Shown here: in pieces, positions 47,998 to 54,085 of the stretch | How the letters are laid out: each line of letters starts with the position of its first letter | Position numbering within the stretch: the first letter of the stretch is position 1 | Origin: Candidatus Chloroploca asiatica | GTDB lineage: Bacteria > Chloroflexota > Chloroflexia > Chloroflexales > Chloroflexaceae | NCBI RefSeq assembly: GCF_002532075.1 | Contig: NZ_LYXE01000031.1 | Location: 1-64,000, forward strand | DNA length: 64,000 nt | Direction of reading: 5' to 3' | Notes under the pieces: model-generated | What the model was told of the DNA's origin: nothing | The model's input: only the letters and a program-made list of their open reading frames with translations | Databases searched by the model: none | Made by a program: the position numbers and the translations under genes

Positions 47998-48017
47998 TGC
48001 CTTGCGGCAGCGTTTTT

Positions 48018-48082
48018 TGACGCAGAGGTGCAGAGGCGCAAAGGCGTAACATTAGAAGATTGATTTTTTGAAGCAAAGGCGC
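48018..48082. repeat. GCAGAGGCGCAAAGG-type repeat
   Basis: The stretch contains tandem GCAGAGG/GCAAAGG variants (GACGCAGAGGTGCAGAGGCG, then AAGCAAAGGCGCAAC about 40 bases on). This family of dispersed short repeats is common in Chloroflexota genomes; a similar piece, ACGACGCAAAG with CCTTTGCG, lies before fabD. Confidence 0.4.
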
Positions 48083-48100
48083 AACATGTCTGACGTGTGC

Positions 48101-48682
48101 CTACGGTGCTTGCTGGTAGCACTGGCGACAGCGTGCCTCATAGAGATCGAGCCCGCCGACAACGAGGGTTTCAGCTTCGCGGGGGGCCGGGTCCCCATTG
48201 ATAAGCCGTTGCGAGCGTGTGGCATAGGCCCCGCAGCGTACGCAGATAGCATAGAGCTTGTCAACCTGTTCGGCAACCGCCATGAGTTGCATCATCCCCG
48301 GGAAGGGCTCGGCCCGATAGTTTTGATCGAGCCCAGCCACAATCACCCTGAGCCCCTGGTCGGCCAGAAACTGACAGGCATCGAGAATCGCCTGTGGCGA
48401 GTCTTCGAGGAAATGGATCTCATCGAGGGCGACAACCTGAACATCCTCGGCGGCGGCAAGAACCTGTTTGACCGAGGTGATCGGCACAGCCTCGAGTTGT
48501 GAGCCGGTGTGGCTGGCGATATGGGCGGCACTATAGCGCGTATCCATCCGAGGGGTAAAGATACGGCAAGGCTGACGGGCGATCATCACCTGTCGCATGC
48601 GCCGAATTAACTCCTCAGTCTTGCCACTATACATACATCCACAAATGACTTCGATTCTTCCACCGGAACCAGGTCGAGTCAT
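48101..48682 (-). CDS. tdk: Thymidine kinase
   Basis: The 193-residue type II thymidine kinase has the P-loop [20 protein letters not shown], the DEIHFLED catalytic segment, the lasso [15 protein letters not shown] and the zinc ligands CVRCGAYA and CRQC. It salvages thymidine to dTMP. The ATG at 48682 follows AAGGATTATTTTT. The extension to 48790 would reach into the promoter and is rejected. Confidence 0.95.
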
Positions 48683-48721
48683 AAAAATAATCCTTGAAGA
48701 TAGGCAGATTTCATTCTGGTC

Positions 48722-48750
48722 AATATACGTACATCTGTACAATGTGTCAA
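48722..48750 (-). promoter_or_regulatory. tdk promoter
   Basis: On the - strand TTGACA (48750-48745) and TATATT (48727-48722) are 17 bases apart. The predicted start is near 48715, 33 bases before the ATG. The spacer has a GTACATCTGTAC inverted motif on the + strand (48729-48740), a possible operator. Confidence 0.78.
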
Positions 48751-48832
48751 GTTGTTGGGCAGTGCCAGGGCCGCAGGCCCCTGGCACCACCCGTGCCGAG
48801 CTCGTGCTCTACACCCAGTTCTTCTTTGGGGG

Positions 48833-48866
48833 TTGACAGCCAGTATACCGAGTGGTATACTGGCTG
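48833..48866 (+). promoter_or_regulatory. TetR promoter with overlapping palindromic operator
   Basis: TTGACA at 48833-48838 and TATACT at 48856-48861 are exactly 17 bases apart. A perfect inverted repeat, CAGCCAGTATACC at 48837-48849 and GGTATACTGGCTG at 48854-48866, covers the spacer and -10. The geometry fits autorepression by the TetR protein. The expected start, near 48868, is next to the ATG at 48869. Confidence 0.85.
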
Positions 48867-48868
48867 AT

Positions 48869-49435
48869 ATGGATAACCGTCAAGCAATTTTAGCGCACGC
48901 ACTCGACCTTTTTGCTTCTCGTGGCTATGATGCGGTTGGGGTACAAGCGATCTGCACGGCTGCGGGGATCACGAAACCAACCCTCTACCATTATTTTGGG
49001 AGTAAGCAGGGTCTGCTTGCGGCGCTCGTCGAAGAGCGTATCGCGCCTTTATTGGCCCAACTCGCTGAAGTGACGACCTACAGGGGCGATCTTCCGCACA
49101 CACTGACGCAGCTTGTACATATCTATTTTGGCTTTGCGCGCACAGAACCTGTCGTCTATCGGTTGATGTTAGGCCTCTGGTTTGGGCCTACGACGGGGGA
49201 GGCGTTCCAGATCATTGTGGCATGTATTCAGGAGCAACATCGCCTGGTTGAGGAGCTTTTTGCATGGGCTACCGCTGATCATGGCAACATGCGTGGACGG
49301 CAGCGTATTTATGCCGCCACCTTGCTTGGCACAATCAATATCCGGGTAACGATGGCGCTCAACGGATTTGGTGACCTTGATGACACTGTTGTCTACCAGA
49401 CAGTTCACCAGTTTTCGCATGGTATCTATTCATAA
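48869..49435 (+). CDS. TetR-family transcriptional repressor
   Basis: The 188-residue protein has an N-terminal helix-turn-helix (FASRGYDAVGVQAICTAAGI then TKPTLYHYFGSKQGLLAALV) and a ligand domain with no assigned inducer. The ATG at 48869 has no ribosome binding site and lies at the predicted transcription start, so the mRNA is probably leaderless. It likely binds the palindrome on its own promoter. The GH13 gene begins 16 bases downstream and would be controlled with it. A longer frame from 48752 covers the promoter and is rejected. Confidence 0.93.
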   Translation: MDNRQAILAHALDLFASRGYDAVGVQAICTAAGITKPTLYHYFGSKQGLLAALVEERIAPLLAQLAEVTTYRGDLPHTLTQLVHIYFGFARTEPVVYRLMLGLWFGPTTGEAFQIIVACIQEQHRLVEELFAWATADHGNMRGRQRIYAATLLGTINIRVTMALNGFGDLDDTVVYQTVHQFSHGIYS

Positions 49436-49451
49436 TTTAAGGATCTACATA

Positions 49452-50816
49452 ATGACTCACTGGTCACATGACGCCATCTTTTACCATATCTACCCGTTGG
49501 GCCTGTGTGGTGCGCCGCATACGAACCCTTTTGATGGGAGTGTTGCGCCACGGTTGCGCGAGCTCCACGACTGGATTGAACCGATGCGCACGCTTGGCGT
49601 GAACGCACTCTATCTAGGGCCTTTGTTTGAGTCAACCAGTCACGGATATGACACCGTTGACTACTATACCCTCGATCGGCGCCTTGGTACGAACGCGATG
49701 CTGGCAGAGCTTGCCAATGAACTGCATCGCAATGGGATCAGACTGATCCTTGACGGTGTGTTTCACCATGTTGGGCGTGATTTCTGGGCGTTTCGCGATC
49801 TCTTGACGCACCAGGAGGCTTCGGCCTACCGGGATTGGTTTGTGGAGATTGATTTTAGTCAACGGAGCCCTTACGGTGATCCTTTCAGTTATGCGAGTTG
49901 GGATGGATACTTTAATCTGGTGAAACTTAACCTGCGCAATGCAGAGGTGCGGGCGCATCTATTTGGGGCGGTGCAGAACTGGATCGAGCAATTTGACCTT
50001 GATGGTTTGCGGCTTGATGTGGCCGAACTGCTTGACCTGGAGTTTCTGCGTGAGTTGCGCCAGGTTTGCAAAGCACGCAAACCTGATTTCTGGTTGATGG
50101 GTGAGCAGGTCCATGGTGATTATCGGCGTATCGCCAACCCCGACATGCTTGATGCAACAACAAACTACGAAGTCTACAAGGGTCTCTACTCAAGCCACAA
50201 TGATCACAACTACTTTGAAATTGCCCATTCGCTCAAGCGGCAATATGGGTCAGAGGGTGTCTACCGGGGGCTGCCGCTCTACAATTTTGTTGATAATCAT
50301 GATGTACCGCGTGTGGCCTCGATCTTGGCTGAGCCAGCGCATCTCGCCCCAATCTATGCGTTGCTCTTGACGATACCTGGGGTGCCAGCGATCTACTATG
50401 GGAGTGAGTGGGGGTATGGTGGCGTGAAGAGCGATGATGACGCGCTCCTCCGCCCGCAGTTACGTCTGCCAGAAGCACGGGTGCAGGCGCCGTACCCTGA
50501 ACTAGCCGACACCCTGGCGCTTCTGGCTGATTGCCGCCATCGTTTGCCAGCCCTTCGTTATGGCGACTACACCCAGGTGCATGTTGCTGCCGAGCAACTC
50601 GCTTTTGTCCGCCGCTACCACGAGCAGTTTGCGCTGGTTGCGGTCAATGCAGCTGCTTCACCAGTGGATCTCGTGCTGCCGATGGAGCTACCCAACGGAA
50701 CCGTGCTGATGGACTGGCTGAACCAGGGTAGCGACCTGATCGTCAACGAAGGTCGGGTCACCCTTCACGTGCCCGCTCGGTGGGCGAGTCTGCTCACAAG
50801 GGCCTCAGCGACCTAA
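49452..50816 (+). CDS. GH13 alpha-amylase-family glycosidase
   Basis: The 454-residue protein is a (beta/alpha)8 GH13 enzyme with LILDGVFHHVG (region I), the nucleophile Asp189 in FDLDGLRLDVAEL, the acid/base Glu218 in LMGEQVHGDY, and Asp284 in FVDNHDVPRVAS. There is a small C-terminal beta domain. No signal peptide is seen, so it is cytoplasmic, acting on maltodextrin-like or sugar-nucleotide-independent alpha-glucosides. It is short compared with extracellular amylases. Likely co-transcribed with the TetR gene, AAGGA upstream. Confidence 0.9.
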   Translation: MTHWSHDAIFYHIYPLGLCGAPHTNPFDGSVAPRLRELHDWIEPMRTLGVNALYLGPLFESTSHGYDTVDYYTLDRRLGTNAMLAELANELHRNGIRLILDGVFHHVGRDFWAFRDLLTHQEASAYRDWFVEIDFSQRSPYGDPFSYASWDGYFNLVKLNLRNAEVRAHLFGAVQNWIEQFDLDGLRLDVAELLDLEFLRELRQVCKARKPDFWLMGEQVHGDYRRIANPDMLDATTNYEVYKGLYSSHNDHNYFEIAHSLKRQYGSEGVYRGLPLYNFVDNHDVPRVASILAEPAHLAPIYALLLTIPGVPAIYYGSEWGYGGVKSDDDALLRPQLRLPEARVQAPYPELADTLALLADCRHRLPALRYGDYTQVHVAAEQLAFVRRYHEQFALVAVNAAASPVDLVLPMELPNGTVLMDWLNQGSDLIVNEGRVTLHVPARWASLLTRASAT

Positions 50817-50871
50817 CCATCTGGCATATAATGAAGCAGACAACCGCACACACATCGCTGAAGGATTGGGT

Positions 50872-52050
50872 ATGTCTGCTTCAAAACCCCGTCGGCGCTC
50901 GCCGTCTTCGTCATTCTGGGCTCTGTTGCTTGTGGTGGGACTGGTTACCCTCGGCTACTTGTTTAGCCAGGGTGTTTTCAATCCGCTGTTGCGTCGGGTG
51001 GGGCTTGATCCGGCCTGGTTTGGCCTGGAGCATACTGCGCAGCCAGCGGCCATCATTGCGACTGATGCTGGCTCGCTCGAGGTCTTTTTTACCACCCCCG
51101 AACTCGTCTATCCTGATGTGCCACGGAACCGACTTGCCCCGGCGCATGAACGGGCGTTGCTGGCTGATCTTCGGTCGGCGACGCAGAGCATTGACTTTGC
51201 CAGCTTTGAGTACAATCTGACGAGTCTTGCCGACGCACTGGTCGCGGCTCGGCAACGGGGAGTGAAGGTGCGCCTGGCGCTTGACCGTGGCAACCTCGAA
51301 AATCCAGTGATGGCGAAATGGGCCGGAATTGTGGAGGATGCAGGGATTCCGATCAGTTGGGAAGAGAGTAGTAATTTTCTGCACAGCAAATTTGTTGTGA
51401 TTGATGAGCGCATTGTCTGGACTGGTTCGTGGAATCCGACGATCAATGATACCTACCGGAACAACAATAATATTCTGCGTAGCACCATCCCCGTGCTCGT
51501 GGCCAACTATCGTGCCGAGTTCGAGCGGATGGCTGACGGAGATTTTGGGAAACGCAAGAGGGGCGCTACGCCTTATCCAACGATCCAGATGGGCGATGTG
51601 TTGATCGAGAATTATTTTTCGCCAACTGAACCGGTGCGTGACCGCATTGTGGCGTATCTGGCTGAAGCTGAACGTAGTGTTGATGTGATGGCCTTTTCGT
51701 TCACGGCTGATGAGATCGGTGAGGCGATGGTTGAACGCCATCAGGCAGGTGTTCCCGTACGAGTTGTCTTTGAAAATCGCAATGCCGCTGGAATTGGATC
51801 GGAATTTGATCGCTTGTTTGATGCTGGTATTGATGTGCTCAAAGACGGCAATTGTTATACCATGCACCACAAGGTGATCATCATTGATCAGCGGATTGTC
51901 ATCACCGGCTCGTACAACTTCACGGCACGGGCCGAGAATGTGAATGACGAGAATCTTTTGATCATCAATGATGCGGCGCTTGCGGCGGGGTATCAAGAAG
52001 AATTTGCGCGAGTCTATACGCAGGCGCGCAATCCGCTACGTTGCAATTAG
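50872..52050 (+). CDS. Phospholipase D-like protein with two HKD motifs
   Basis: The 392-residue product has an N-terminal membrane helix (FWALLLVVGLVTLGYLF) and two PLDc modules: LHSKFVVIDERIVWTGSWNP (His-Lys-Asp with GSxN) and MHHKVIIIDQRIVITGSYNF. Both catalytic sets are complete, so a phosphodiesterase acting on lipid or nucleic acid is possible. The outside location is inferred from the signal-anchor. The start is ATG 50872, six bases after AAGGA at 50861-50865; the frame extends to TTG 50866 without support. Confidence 0.9.
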   Translation: MSASKPRRRSPSSSFWALLLVVGLVTLGYLFSQGVFNPLLRRVGLDPAWFGLEHTAQPAAIIATDAGSLEVFFTTPELVYPDVPRNRLAPAHERALLADLRSATQSIDFASFEYNLTSLADALVAARQRGVKVRLALDRGNLENPVMAKWAGIVEDAGIPISWEESSNFLHSKFVVIDERIVWTGSWNPTINDTYRNNNNILRSTIPVLVANYRAEFERMADGDFGKRKRGATPYPTIQMGDVLIENYFSPTEPVRDRIVAYLAEAERSVDVMAFSFTADEIGEAMVERHQAGVPVRVVFENRNAAGIGSEFDRLFDAGIDVLKDGNCYTMHHKVIIIDQRIVITGSYNFTARAENVNDENLLIINDAALAAGYQEEFARVYTQARNPLRCN

Positions 52051-52100
52051 GTTGCGGGGTCACGGCAGCGCCGTGCCCCAACCGGACATATGCTTAAAAC

Positions 52101-52109
52101 TGGTATAAT
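52101..52109 (+). promoter_or_regulatory. Extended -10 promoter of the signalling locus
   Basis: TGG followed by TATAAT (52104-52109) is a full extended -10 element. No convincing -35 at 17 bases. The predicted start is near 52116, 47 bases before the first ATG. Confidence 0.6.
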
Positions 52110-52162
52110 CGAGCAGAGCATCATGCTGATATTGACAGTGCTTCTGATCTGGTGAGCGTGCC

Positions 52163-54085
52163 ATGATCGCAATTCTTGAGCAACTCAATCTGCTCCTCGC
52201 GGCAGTAGTTCTTATTGTTACCTTCTCGCTTCTGGCCTATATCGCCATGCAGAACTGGCGCAATGATATTGCCCGGGCGCTCGTGGTTCTGCTGGCGGGG
52301 GTGGTCATTGTCTATGGCGGCGATCTGTTGCTGGCGCGGGCAACCCGTGCGGCCACAATGGATGTCCTTGGCCGAGCCCAGTGGCTTGGCATTGCGATGG
52401 TTCCTGCCGCCTATATTCATCTTGCCAACGGGCTCTTTGCGATCAGCGAGTCTCAGGCACTGGCCTTGCGCAGCCGCCGCCTCGTTTATCTGGCCTATCT
52501 TGGGAGTCTGATCTTCTTTTTGCTGGTTGCCCTCGGGACCGATCTGGTGGTGCAGGGTGGCTTGCCAAGTGGCCCGATTGCTCAGTTTCGCCCGGGGCCG
52601 CTCTTCTGGTCATATGCGCTCTTTTTCGTGATCGGTGCTGTCGTGGCATTTGTTGCGATTGTGCAGTCGCAGCGGAGTGCCTTGACCGCCAATCAACGCC
52701 GCCGCCTGATGTATCTTGGGGCCAGCTTTGCGGCCCCGGGGATCGGGGTCTTTCCGTTTCTCGTCGTTGGGATGCCGGCCGCAGTTCCGATCAGTGTTGT
52801 GCTCTTTCTGCAAGCGATTGCCAGTGTCATCGTGACGGTGATGATCACGATCATGACTTATAGCATCGCGTTTCAAGGCGTGCTTTTGCCTGATCGCCTG
52901 ATCAAGCAAGATTTTCTGCGCTGGTGGCTCTATGGACCCTTTATTGGCATTTCGATTGTCCTGTTTATTCAAGTTGTGCCCCTCTTTGAGCGCCTGCTCG
53001 GCTTTCCGCAGAATACGCTGCTGACCTTTGGCGTGATGTTGATGACAGTGTTGATGCCGCTCTTTGTGAGCCGCGTCAAGCCCTACCTGGATACGCTGGT
53101 CTATATGCAAGACCAGGACGAGATTGATTATCTGCGTAAATTGCCGCGCAGTACCTTTACCCGCGCAGATCTGCGCGCCTTGCTTGAGAATTCGCTGGTG
53201 GCGATCTGTGGGGCGTTACGGGTCGAAACAGGGTTTGTGCTGGTGCCCGACGCGAACGAGTATAGTATCCGAGCCGTCTGTGGCTCGCGTCGTGAGGTCA
53301 AGCGGTTTCTTGGTGACTGTCCGTTGCCCGATCTTTTGCCCCAGTTGCAACAGTTGCCACCGCGTGGCCGCGGGTTGTTGCCGCCGACTGATGCCTTTGT
53401 GGCCTGTGGCGGTTTTTGCCTGCTGCCCCTCCATAGCCCCGATGGGCTTTTTCTTGGTGCCGTCGCGGTCGCGTATCAGCCCGAAACGTTGCAAAGCGAG
53501 ACTAGTTTGATGCCCGAGACGCGCCAGTTGATCAGTGTGTTGACCCATCAGATGGAACTGGCCCTTTCGACCGTGCAGATGCAGCAGCGCATCTTTGATG
53601 CCCTGCGCGGCCTTGCGCCCGAGATGGAGTCGTTGCAACATGTGGTGAGTCAACTCGAACAGGGTACAGCCCCCGATCTGGCCGCCACCGATGGCGAGAT
53701 GGTGCTCAGCCCCGATTTCCCTCAATTGGTGAAAGATGCGTTGACCCAGTTCTGGGGTGGCCCCAAACTTGCCGATAGCCCTCTGATGGGCCTGCGTACG
53801 GTCAAACGGGTGATCCAGGATCAAGGAGGCAGCCCCACCCGCGCTTTGCAGGTTGTGCTCCGTCAGGCGATCAGCAATCTGCGCCCCGATGAACAACTTG
53901 CCCCTTCCGGTCAAGAGTGGCTGCTCTATAATTTACTTGAAGGGCGCTTTCTCCAACGCAAAACGGTTCGTGATGTCGCCAATCGCCTGGCGATGAGTGA
54001 GTCGGATTTTTATCGCAAGCAACGGATTGCCATCGAAGAGGTTGCCCGCCAACTGGCCTTGATGGAAGAAGATGTCCGTTCATAA
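52163..54085 (+). CDS. Membrane sensor with GAF and C-terminal HTH
   Basis: The 640-residue protein has eight or so hydrophobic helices in the first 300 residues, like the 7TM sensory region of some histidine kinases. A GAF-like domain follows (about 320-465, AICGALRVETGFVLVPDANE). The last 100 residues contain a sigma-4-like helix-turn-helix (KTVRDVANRLAMSESDFYRK then QRIAIEEVARQL) and no HisKA or ATPase motifs. It looks like a membrane-bound transcription regulator. It precedes a lone receiver and a hybrid kinase on the same strand. Confidence 0.85.
   Translation: MIAILEQLNLLLAAVVLIVTFSLLAYIAMQNWRNDIARALVVLLAGVVIVYGGDLLLARATRAATMDVLGRAQWLGIAMVPAAYIHLANGLFAISESQALALRSRRLVYLAYLGSLIFFLLVALGTDLVVQGGLPSGPIAQFRPGPLFWSYALFFVIGAVVAFVAIVQSQRSALTANQRRRLMYLGASFAAPGIGVFPFLVVGMPAAVPISVVLFLQAIASVIVTVMITIMTYSIAFQGVLLPDRLIKQDFLRWWLYGPFIGISIVLFIQVVPLFERLLGFPQNTLLTFGVMLMTVLMPLFVSRVKPYLDTLVYMQDQDEIDYLRKLPRSTFTRADLRALLENSLVAICGALRVETGFVLVPDANEYSIRAVCGSRREVKRFLGDCPLPDLLPQLQQLPPRGRGLLPPTDAFVACGGFCLLPLHSPDGLFLGAVAVAYQPETLQSETSLMPETRQLISVLTHQMELALSTVQMQQRIFDALRGLAPEMESLQHVVSQLEQGTAPDLAATDGEMVLSPDFPQLVKDALTQFWGGPKLADSPLMGLRTVKRVIQDQGGSPTRALQVVLRQAISNLRPDEQLAPSGQEWLLYNLLEGRFLQRKTVRDVANRLAMSESDFYRKQRIAIEEVARQLALMEEDVRS

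Follow-up and report, generated by a model that had tools for sequence, protein, structure and literature searches.

The tetR-amylase locus

The first 64,000 nucleotides of contig NZ_LYXE01000031.1 of Candidatus Chloroploca asiatica (hereafter the window) contain a gene for a TetR family repressor followed by a gene of the GH13 amylase family (Table 1). The repressor possesses an N-terminal TetR_N HTH domain (PF00440, E 1.6e-18; 66.7 bits, cut-off 24), and its AlphaFold model (pLDDT 92.9, nine helices) has the all-helical two-domain fold of TetR proteins, with 469 matches in the PDB at E <= 0.001, the best of which are the TetR regulators FasR, FadR and BkaR. It scores 28.1 bits against the NCBIfam AcuR model NF051457, for which the cut-off is 247; judged by its sequence, the protein is not an AcuR. 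The second gene product contains a GH13 catalytic (alpha-amylase) domain (PF00128, E 4.2e-45; 155 bits, cut-off 22), and the nearest solved chains are those of maltogenic amylase and neopullulanase; its scores against the NCBIfam models of maltodextrin glucosidase (188 bits, cut-off 568) and cyclomaltodextrinase (173 bits, cut-off 540) fall below the cut-offs. An apparent lead to osmotolerance through Deinococcus DogH (TetR with cyclomaltodextrinase) proved false, the string 'tetr' standing for tetrahydropyrimidine.

Table 1. Features of the tetR-amylase locus in the window
Feature	Position	Strand	Basis
-35 element of the tetR-amylase promoter, TTGACA	48833..48838	+	sequence and promoter scan
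Operator 1 with outer arms, perfect palindrome CAGCCAGTATACC-GAGT-GGTATACTGGCTG	48837..48866	.	repeat and pattern searches
Operator core TATACC-N4-GGTATA, conserved	48844..48859	.	comparison of loci
-10 element TATACT, 17-nt spacer	48856..48861	+	sequence and promoter scan
Expected transcription start, 0-2 nt leader	48867..48869	+	inferred from -10 position
tetR, TetR-family repressor, 188 aa, no SD	48869..49435	+	Pfam PF00440, structure model, fold matches
SD of the amylase gene, AAGGA, 8 nt upstream of the ATG	49439..49443	+	read by eye
GH13 amylase-family gene, 454 aa	49452..50816	+	Pfam PF00128, nearest solved chains

A sequence-only reading of this DNA had placed a promoter TTGACA-17-TATACT before a tetR start codon at 48869 that lacks an SD, and had noted a perfect 13+4+13 palindrome over the promoter. 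The letters and coordinates of the former are right, and the palindrome (48837-48866) is indeed perfect, its 13-nt arms (48837-48849 and 48854-48866) being 100% complementary and 4 nt apart. It runs past the -10 element, as had been described, ending 5 nt beyond it, but includes only the last two bases of the -35 element rather than all of it. With up to 3 mismatches allowed, the 30-nt palindrome pattern matches once in the window and 0 times in 100 dinucleotide shuffles. A promoter scan of 48000-52500 returned 6 promoter-like sites compared with 2.6 in shuffles; the tetR promoter, with 11 of 12 consensus bases, is the better of 2 sites on the plus strand, and no other plus-strand site was found between 48000 and 48833. 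The end of TATACT is 7 nt from the tetR ATG (48869-48871), and none of AAGG, AGGA, GGAG or GAGG is present 3-12 nt before this codon. Leaderless genes have been defined as lacking an SD and having a TA-like -10 element about 10 bp upstream of the start codon (PMC3160421), and tetR of the window has both this placement of the -10 element and no SD. From the position of the -10 element, RNA would be expected to start anywhere within 48867-48869 rather than at one exact base.

Conservation of the gene pair and operator 1

We compared 49 orthologous loci: a first set of 36 distinct loci (the window's family contributed 11, the window among them; named genomes 21, after removal of two repeats; and a pattern search of the phylum 4) and a later set of 13 loci, fetched once the main patterns had been seen. 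Left out were L015 and L016 (same genomes as L005 and L006), the paralogues L002-L004, the partial or distant matches L038-L094 (57 of the 80 named-genome loci), L098-L101 and L112 (no tetR-amylase pair, except that L098 is the window again), and L106-L111, L143, L145, L154 and L155, which repeat counted loci. Counts over 34 loci refer to the first-set loci with an operator core within 140 nt of tetR. Among named relatives, Candidatus Chloroploca Khr17 (94%) and C. mongolica (92%) are the closest. The pair occurs in Chloroflexota, Spirochaetota and Bacillota, and also in single MAGs under the labels Syntrophaceae and Myxococcota. An amylase relative lies behind tetR in 36/36 first-set and 13/13 later loci. 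The description of the switch as 'self-contained' is unsupported because the amylase gene, which in the window has its own SD and starts 16 nt after the tetR stop, follows tetR in 49/49 orthologous loci.

Upstream of tetR, at least 11 of the 12 bases of the operator core are kept in 36/36 first-set loci and at least 10 of 12 in 13/13 later loci; in L028 and L033 the core lies at -254 and -169 from tetR. TTGAC precedes operator 1 in 32 of the 34 loci, and the four innermost core pairs are invariant in all 34. Outer-arm symmetry is present at 113 of 238 pairs, compared with a mean of 85.4 and a largest value of 110 when partners were shuffled between loci (2000 shuffles). According to these alignments, conservation does not extend to the perfect 13-nt arms; the near-invariant part is the 6-nt core arms only. 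The last T of the -10 element is kept in 33/34 loci, whereas its mirror A in the left arm is kept in 20/34; it is therefore the promoter, rather than symmetry, that keeps this base. Among 400 Chloroflexota genomes, TTGAC-N4..6-core yielded 11 matches (control, 0), 10 of them before a tetR-amylase pair. A search for further regulon sites in the window's genome gave no excess over the control, either for the core (9 places, control 9) or for a longer pattern (3, control 3).

A literature search, largely of papers available without subscription, returned no match to the operator sequence, no paper on a TetR and GH13 alpha-amylase operator in Chloroflexi, and none on leaderless transcription start sites in Chloroflexus; all three results are weak evidence of absence. 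In six loci of one genus (L146-L151), the palindrome at operator 1 extends much further, its arms covering the leader and SD; this long palindrome could also act at the RNA level.

Leaderless geometry of tetR

The start codon lies 6-9 nt after the nominal -10 element in 25 of the 34 first-set loci, further away in 8, and at an unclear distance in one (L019); in L028 and L033, with their distant operators, tetR is leadered too. When an SD was scored within 3-12 nt of the start (first-set start codons were picked by the author from the in-frame list), it was present in 0/25 loci of short geometry versus 7/8 leadered loci of the first set (Fisher p 1.9e-6, uncorrected for kinship). The short geometry recurs in 3/13 later loci, with an SD in 0/3 and, in one of the three, no TTGAC; the other 10, six of which come from one genus, have an SD in 8/10. 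Leaderlessness is not required for the module, because only 3/13 later loci show the geometry. On the tetR tree, leader state changes about 5-6 times, of which well supported branches force only 1-2. Read from geometry and SD content, tetR of the window is very probably leaderless, and leaderlessness comes and goes within the tetR-amylase family.

The comparison of loci supports the earlier suggestion that the promoter of tetR carries the operator and that the start codon has a geometry implying a leader of 0-2 nt. The further suggestion of a 'leaderless translation switch' is unsupported because an absent leader would be a fixed property; no sign of switched translation was seen.

Proposed control of the operon

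The two genes probably form an autorepressed operon with a leaderless tetR and a TetR protein that is released by a ligand. The layout, conservation, gene pair and absent SD are taken from the sequence; we infer the binding, repression, start site, low yield and ligand. A TetR dimer on TATACC-N4-GGTATA, between and over the -35 and -10 elements, would block RNA polymerase; because TetR on the promoter core would exclude the polymerase, it would repress both tetR and the amylase family gene. A ligand, perhaps a sugar or a compound formed by the enzyme, would free TetR from the operator. On firing, the promoter would give an RNA that starts at the tetR ATG or no more than 2 nt from it. Translation of tetR would then be leaderless and probably of low yield, and that of the amylase gene would start from its own SD.

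The promoter and operator could be real and the main transcript could nevertheless come from further upstream, giving a leadered tetR translated independently of an SD, for example through S1 or an unstructured leader. Leadered orthologues (8/34 in the first set, 10/13 in the later set) indicate that the module works with a leader, but the interval 48000-48833 contains no other promoter-like site on the plus strand, the -35 element, spacer and -10 element are conserved together, and loci of short geometry are without an SD (0/25 and 0/3), all of which makes an upstream start rather improbable. We give hardly any credence to the palindrome as an RNA hairpin or terminator of upstream transcription instead of an operator: a perfect 13-nt stem could fold if it were transcribed, but with a start at the ATG it would not be, no T-run follows it, and its core is invariant in sequence (34/34 for the four innermost pairs), which a stem does not need, concerted variation being found in the outer arms only. 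Binding of the palindrome by a different regulator, or additional control of the thymidine kinase gene tdk (48101-48682, minus strand), which is divergent from tetR, is very unlikely, given that tdk has its own promoter-like site (48750-48722) and that the operator remains beside tetR-amylase in genomes where tdk lies elsewhere. Apart from L006/L016, tdk adjoins in the three Chloroploca loci with a long enough upstream flank, and it is beside the operator in none of the other fetched loci (flanks of 1.5-4 kb, some shorter).

A second operator and T-run in relatives

A second copy of the core lies between tetR and the amylase gene in 35/49 loci (23/36 first-set, 12/13 later), and is absent from the three Chloroploca loci, L007, three Spirochaetota, four Lachnospiraceae, L102, L105 and L156. 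In L140 and L141, which belong to one genus, both operators of the locus have become TGTACC-N4-GGTACA, as expected if one protein reads both sites. The gap of L007 has a different perfect palindrome, GTGCGGTTCGAACCGCAC, in place of the second operator.

In 28/35 loci a run of at least six T precedes the second operator and ends 8-11 nt from it; the other 7/35 are without such a run. Such runs are present in 16/23 first-set loci (shuffles: mean 0.29, largest 3; A-runs, 1/23) and in 12/12 later loci of about six lineages, which were fetched after the T-run pattern had been noticed (shuffles: mean 0.26, largest 3). Within 45 nt upstream of operator 1, a T-run is found in 0/34 loci. The tetR-amylase gap of the first set contains a T-run in 17/23 loci with a second operator versus 0/13 without; L156, a later locus that has no second operator, possesses a six-T run within 110 nt downstream of the tetR stop. 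The T-run and the operator keep a steady spacing, whereas the distances to the tetR stop codon and the amylase ATG differ between loci.

In 16/22 loci (L017, with a misassigned amylase start, is excluded from this count) the amylase SD comes after the second operator and before the ATG. In the other 6/22, all of one clade (L024, L025, L031, L034, L035 and L036), it comes just before the operator and is at least 26 nt from the ATG. In the three of these six that were folded, an RNA hairpin of the second operator has about -6 kcal/mol, and such a hairpin may bring the amylase SD and ATG together.

Two other explanations of the second site were set aside. The 40 nt before the T-run fold with 0 to -19.4 kcal/mol, mostly weakly, and a classical intrinsic terminator is therefore not the general answer; looping or helical phasing between the operators finds no support in their distances of 604-724 bp, which share no single phase.

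Our tentative proposal is that the second operator and T-run constitute a ligand-controlled repressor roadblock terminator, with the Chloroploca operon as a reduced derivative from which this element would have been lost. TetR at the second operator would stop the elongating polymerase with the RNA 3' end inside the T-run, where the weak rU:dA hybrid would let the stalled complex fall apart, giving expression of the regulator gene without the enzyme. The probability assigned to this proposal is low because the comparable terminator of yeast needs a hairpin, and most loci have no strong hairpin before the T-run, and because 7/35 second operators are without a T-run and kinship inflates all counts. 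The second operator might instead be a second, repressible promoter serving the amylase gene, in which case the T-run would act as an AT-rich upstream element. Four of 23 second operators keep the last T of a -10-like element (L018, L021, L031 and L035) and four of 23 have TTGA nearby; at operator 1 this last T is kept in 22/23, and TTGAC, present at operator 1 in 22/23, is found at the second operator in 0/23 first-set and 0/12 later loci. By its letters the second operator is not a promoter, and we regard this alternative as doubtful.

Comparison with known systems

The design predicted for the window's operon is known already from the leaderless acuR operon (acuR-acuI-dddL) of Rhodobacter sphaeroides. 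There the acuR transcript starts exactly at the AUG by 5' RACE and lacks an SD, operator mutants are constitutive, and translation of acuR is below that of the neighbouring genes (PMC3017554). Like the window's operon, it has a TetR family gene first, enzyme genes downstream and an inverted-repeat operator overlapping the promoter, a layout that is reported in other taxa; unlike it, it encodes another enzyme, responds to acrylate as ligand, and has an operator, TAATAGAC-N6-GTCTATTA, of different sequence and spacing, and no second intergenic operator is seen in the available text (PMC3017554). The leaderless repressor mRNAs of tetR from transposon Tn1721 and of lambda cI (as cited in PMC3017554) match the leaderless state predicted for tetR of the window, but in what is cited there they do not head an enzyme operon of such kind.

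The second operator resembles the yeast Pol I terminator, in which Reb1 halts the polymerase 15 bp before the Reb1 site, within a T-rich stretch (PMC12366685); in the loci compared here the T-rich stretch ends 8-11 nt before the protein site. The yeast Reb1/Nsi1 terminator differs in being eukaryotic and constitutive, and a roadblock with a T-rich stretch releases no RNA there without an upstream hairpin (PMC12366685). In bacteria, LacI, PurR, GalR, ArsR, CcpA and CodY form roadblocks to elongating RNA polymerase, with Mfd as a releasing factor (PMC10310618). These are like the proposed second site in that a repressor is bound in the transcribed region, but the available text of that source mentions no T-rich release element, its one use of 'T-rich' concerning Cas12a (PMC10310618).

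The window locus is predicted to add a clean and compact example to the leaderless autorepressed TetR operons, few of which are described for the phylum in the literature searched. The operator, gene pair and start geometry can be traced across phyla, and leader loss or gain and SD presence change together; the family is therefore a natural test of shifts between leaderless and SD-led translation. The unexpected part is the combination of second operator and T-run, outside the window's genus, which looks like a new repressor-dependent stop signal. If that is true, it would be a bacterial repressor-dependent terminator with a layout comparable to that of eukaryotic rDNA terminators, and would provide a simple genetic part.

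Other leaderless-like starts and the tdk flank

TA-led genes have been reported in 4 of 12 Chloroflexi genomes, where they account for 4.7% of genes on average (PMC3160421). In the window's genome, 12 matches have 5-8 nt between the -10 element and ATG versus 9 with 12-15 nt (control, 1 each), and frames of at least 100 aa are opened by 5/12 versus 2/9, so that genome-wide enrichment of the leaderless geometry is not convincing at 12 versus 9 matches. Leaderless-like promoter-to-ATG spacings are found there at two copies of an IS200-like transposase (L122 and L129, the latter scored as Y1_Tnp), and the corresponding distance at a folK-like gene (HPPK, L124) suggests a leaderless mRNA.

Between tdk and tetR lies an imperfect inverted repeat (48757-48792; 14-nt arms, 86%), with a diverged counterpart in Khr17. 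At 7 nt beyond the promoter-like site of tdk, TTGACA-17-TATATT (48750-48722, minus strand), an ATG at 48714 opens a frame of 11 codons, and the stop of this frame overlaps the ATG of tdk; positions 48679-48750 are identical in Khr17 as printed. This frame could be a coupled leader peptide or could be due to chance.
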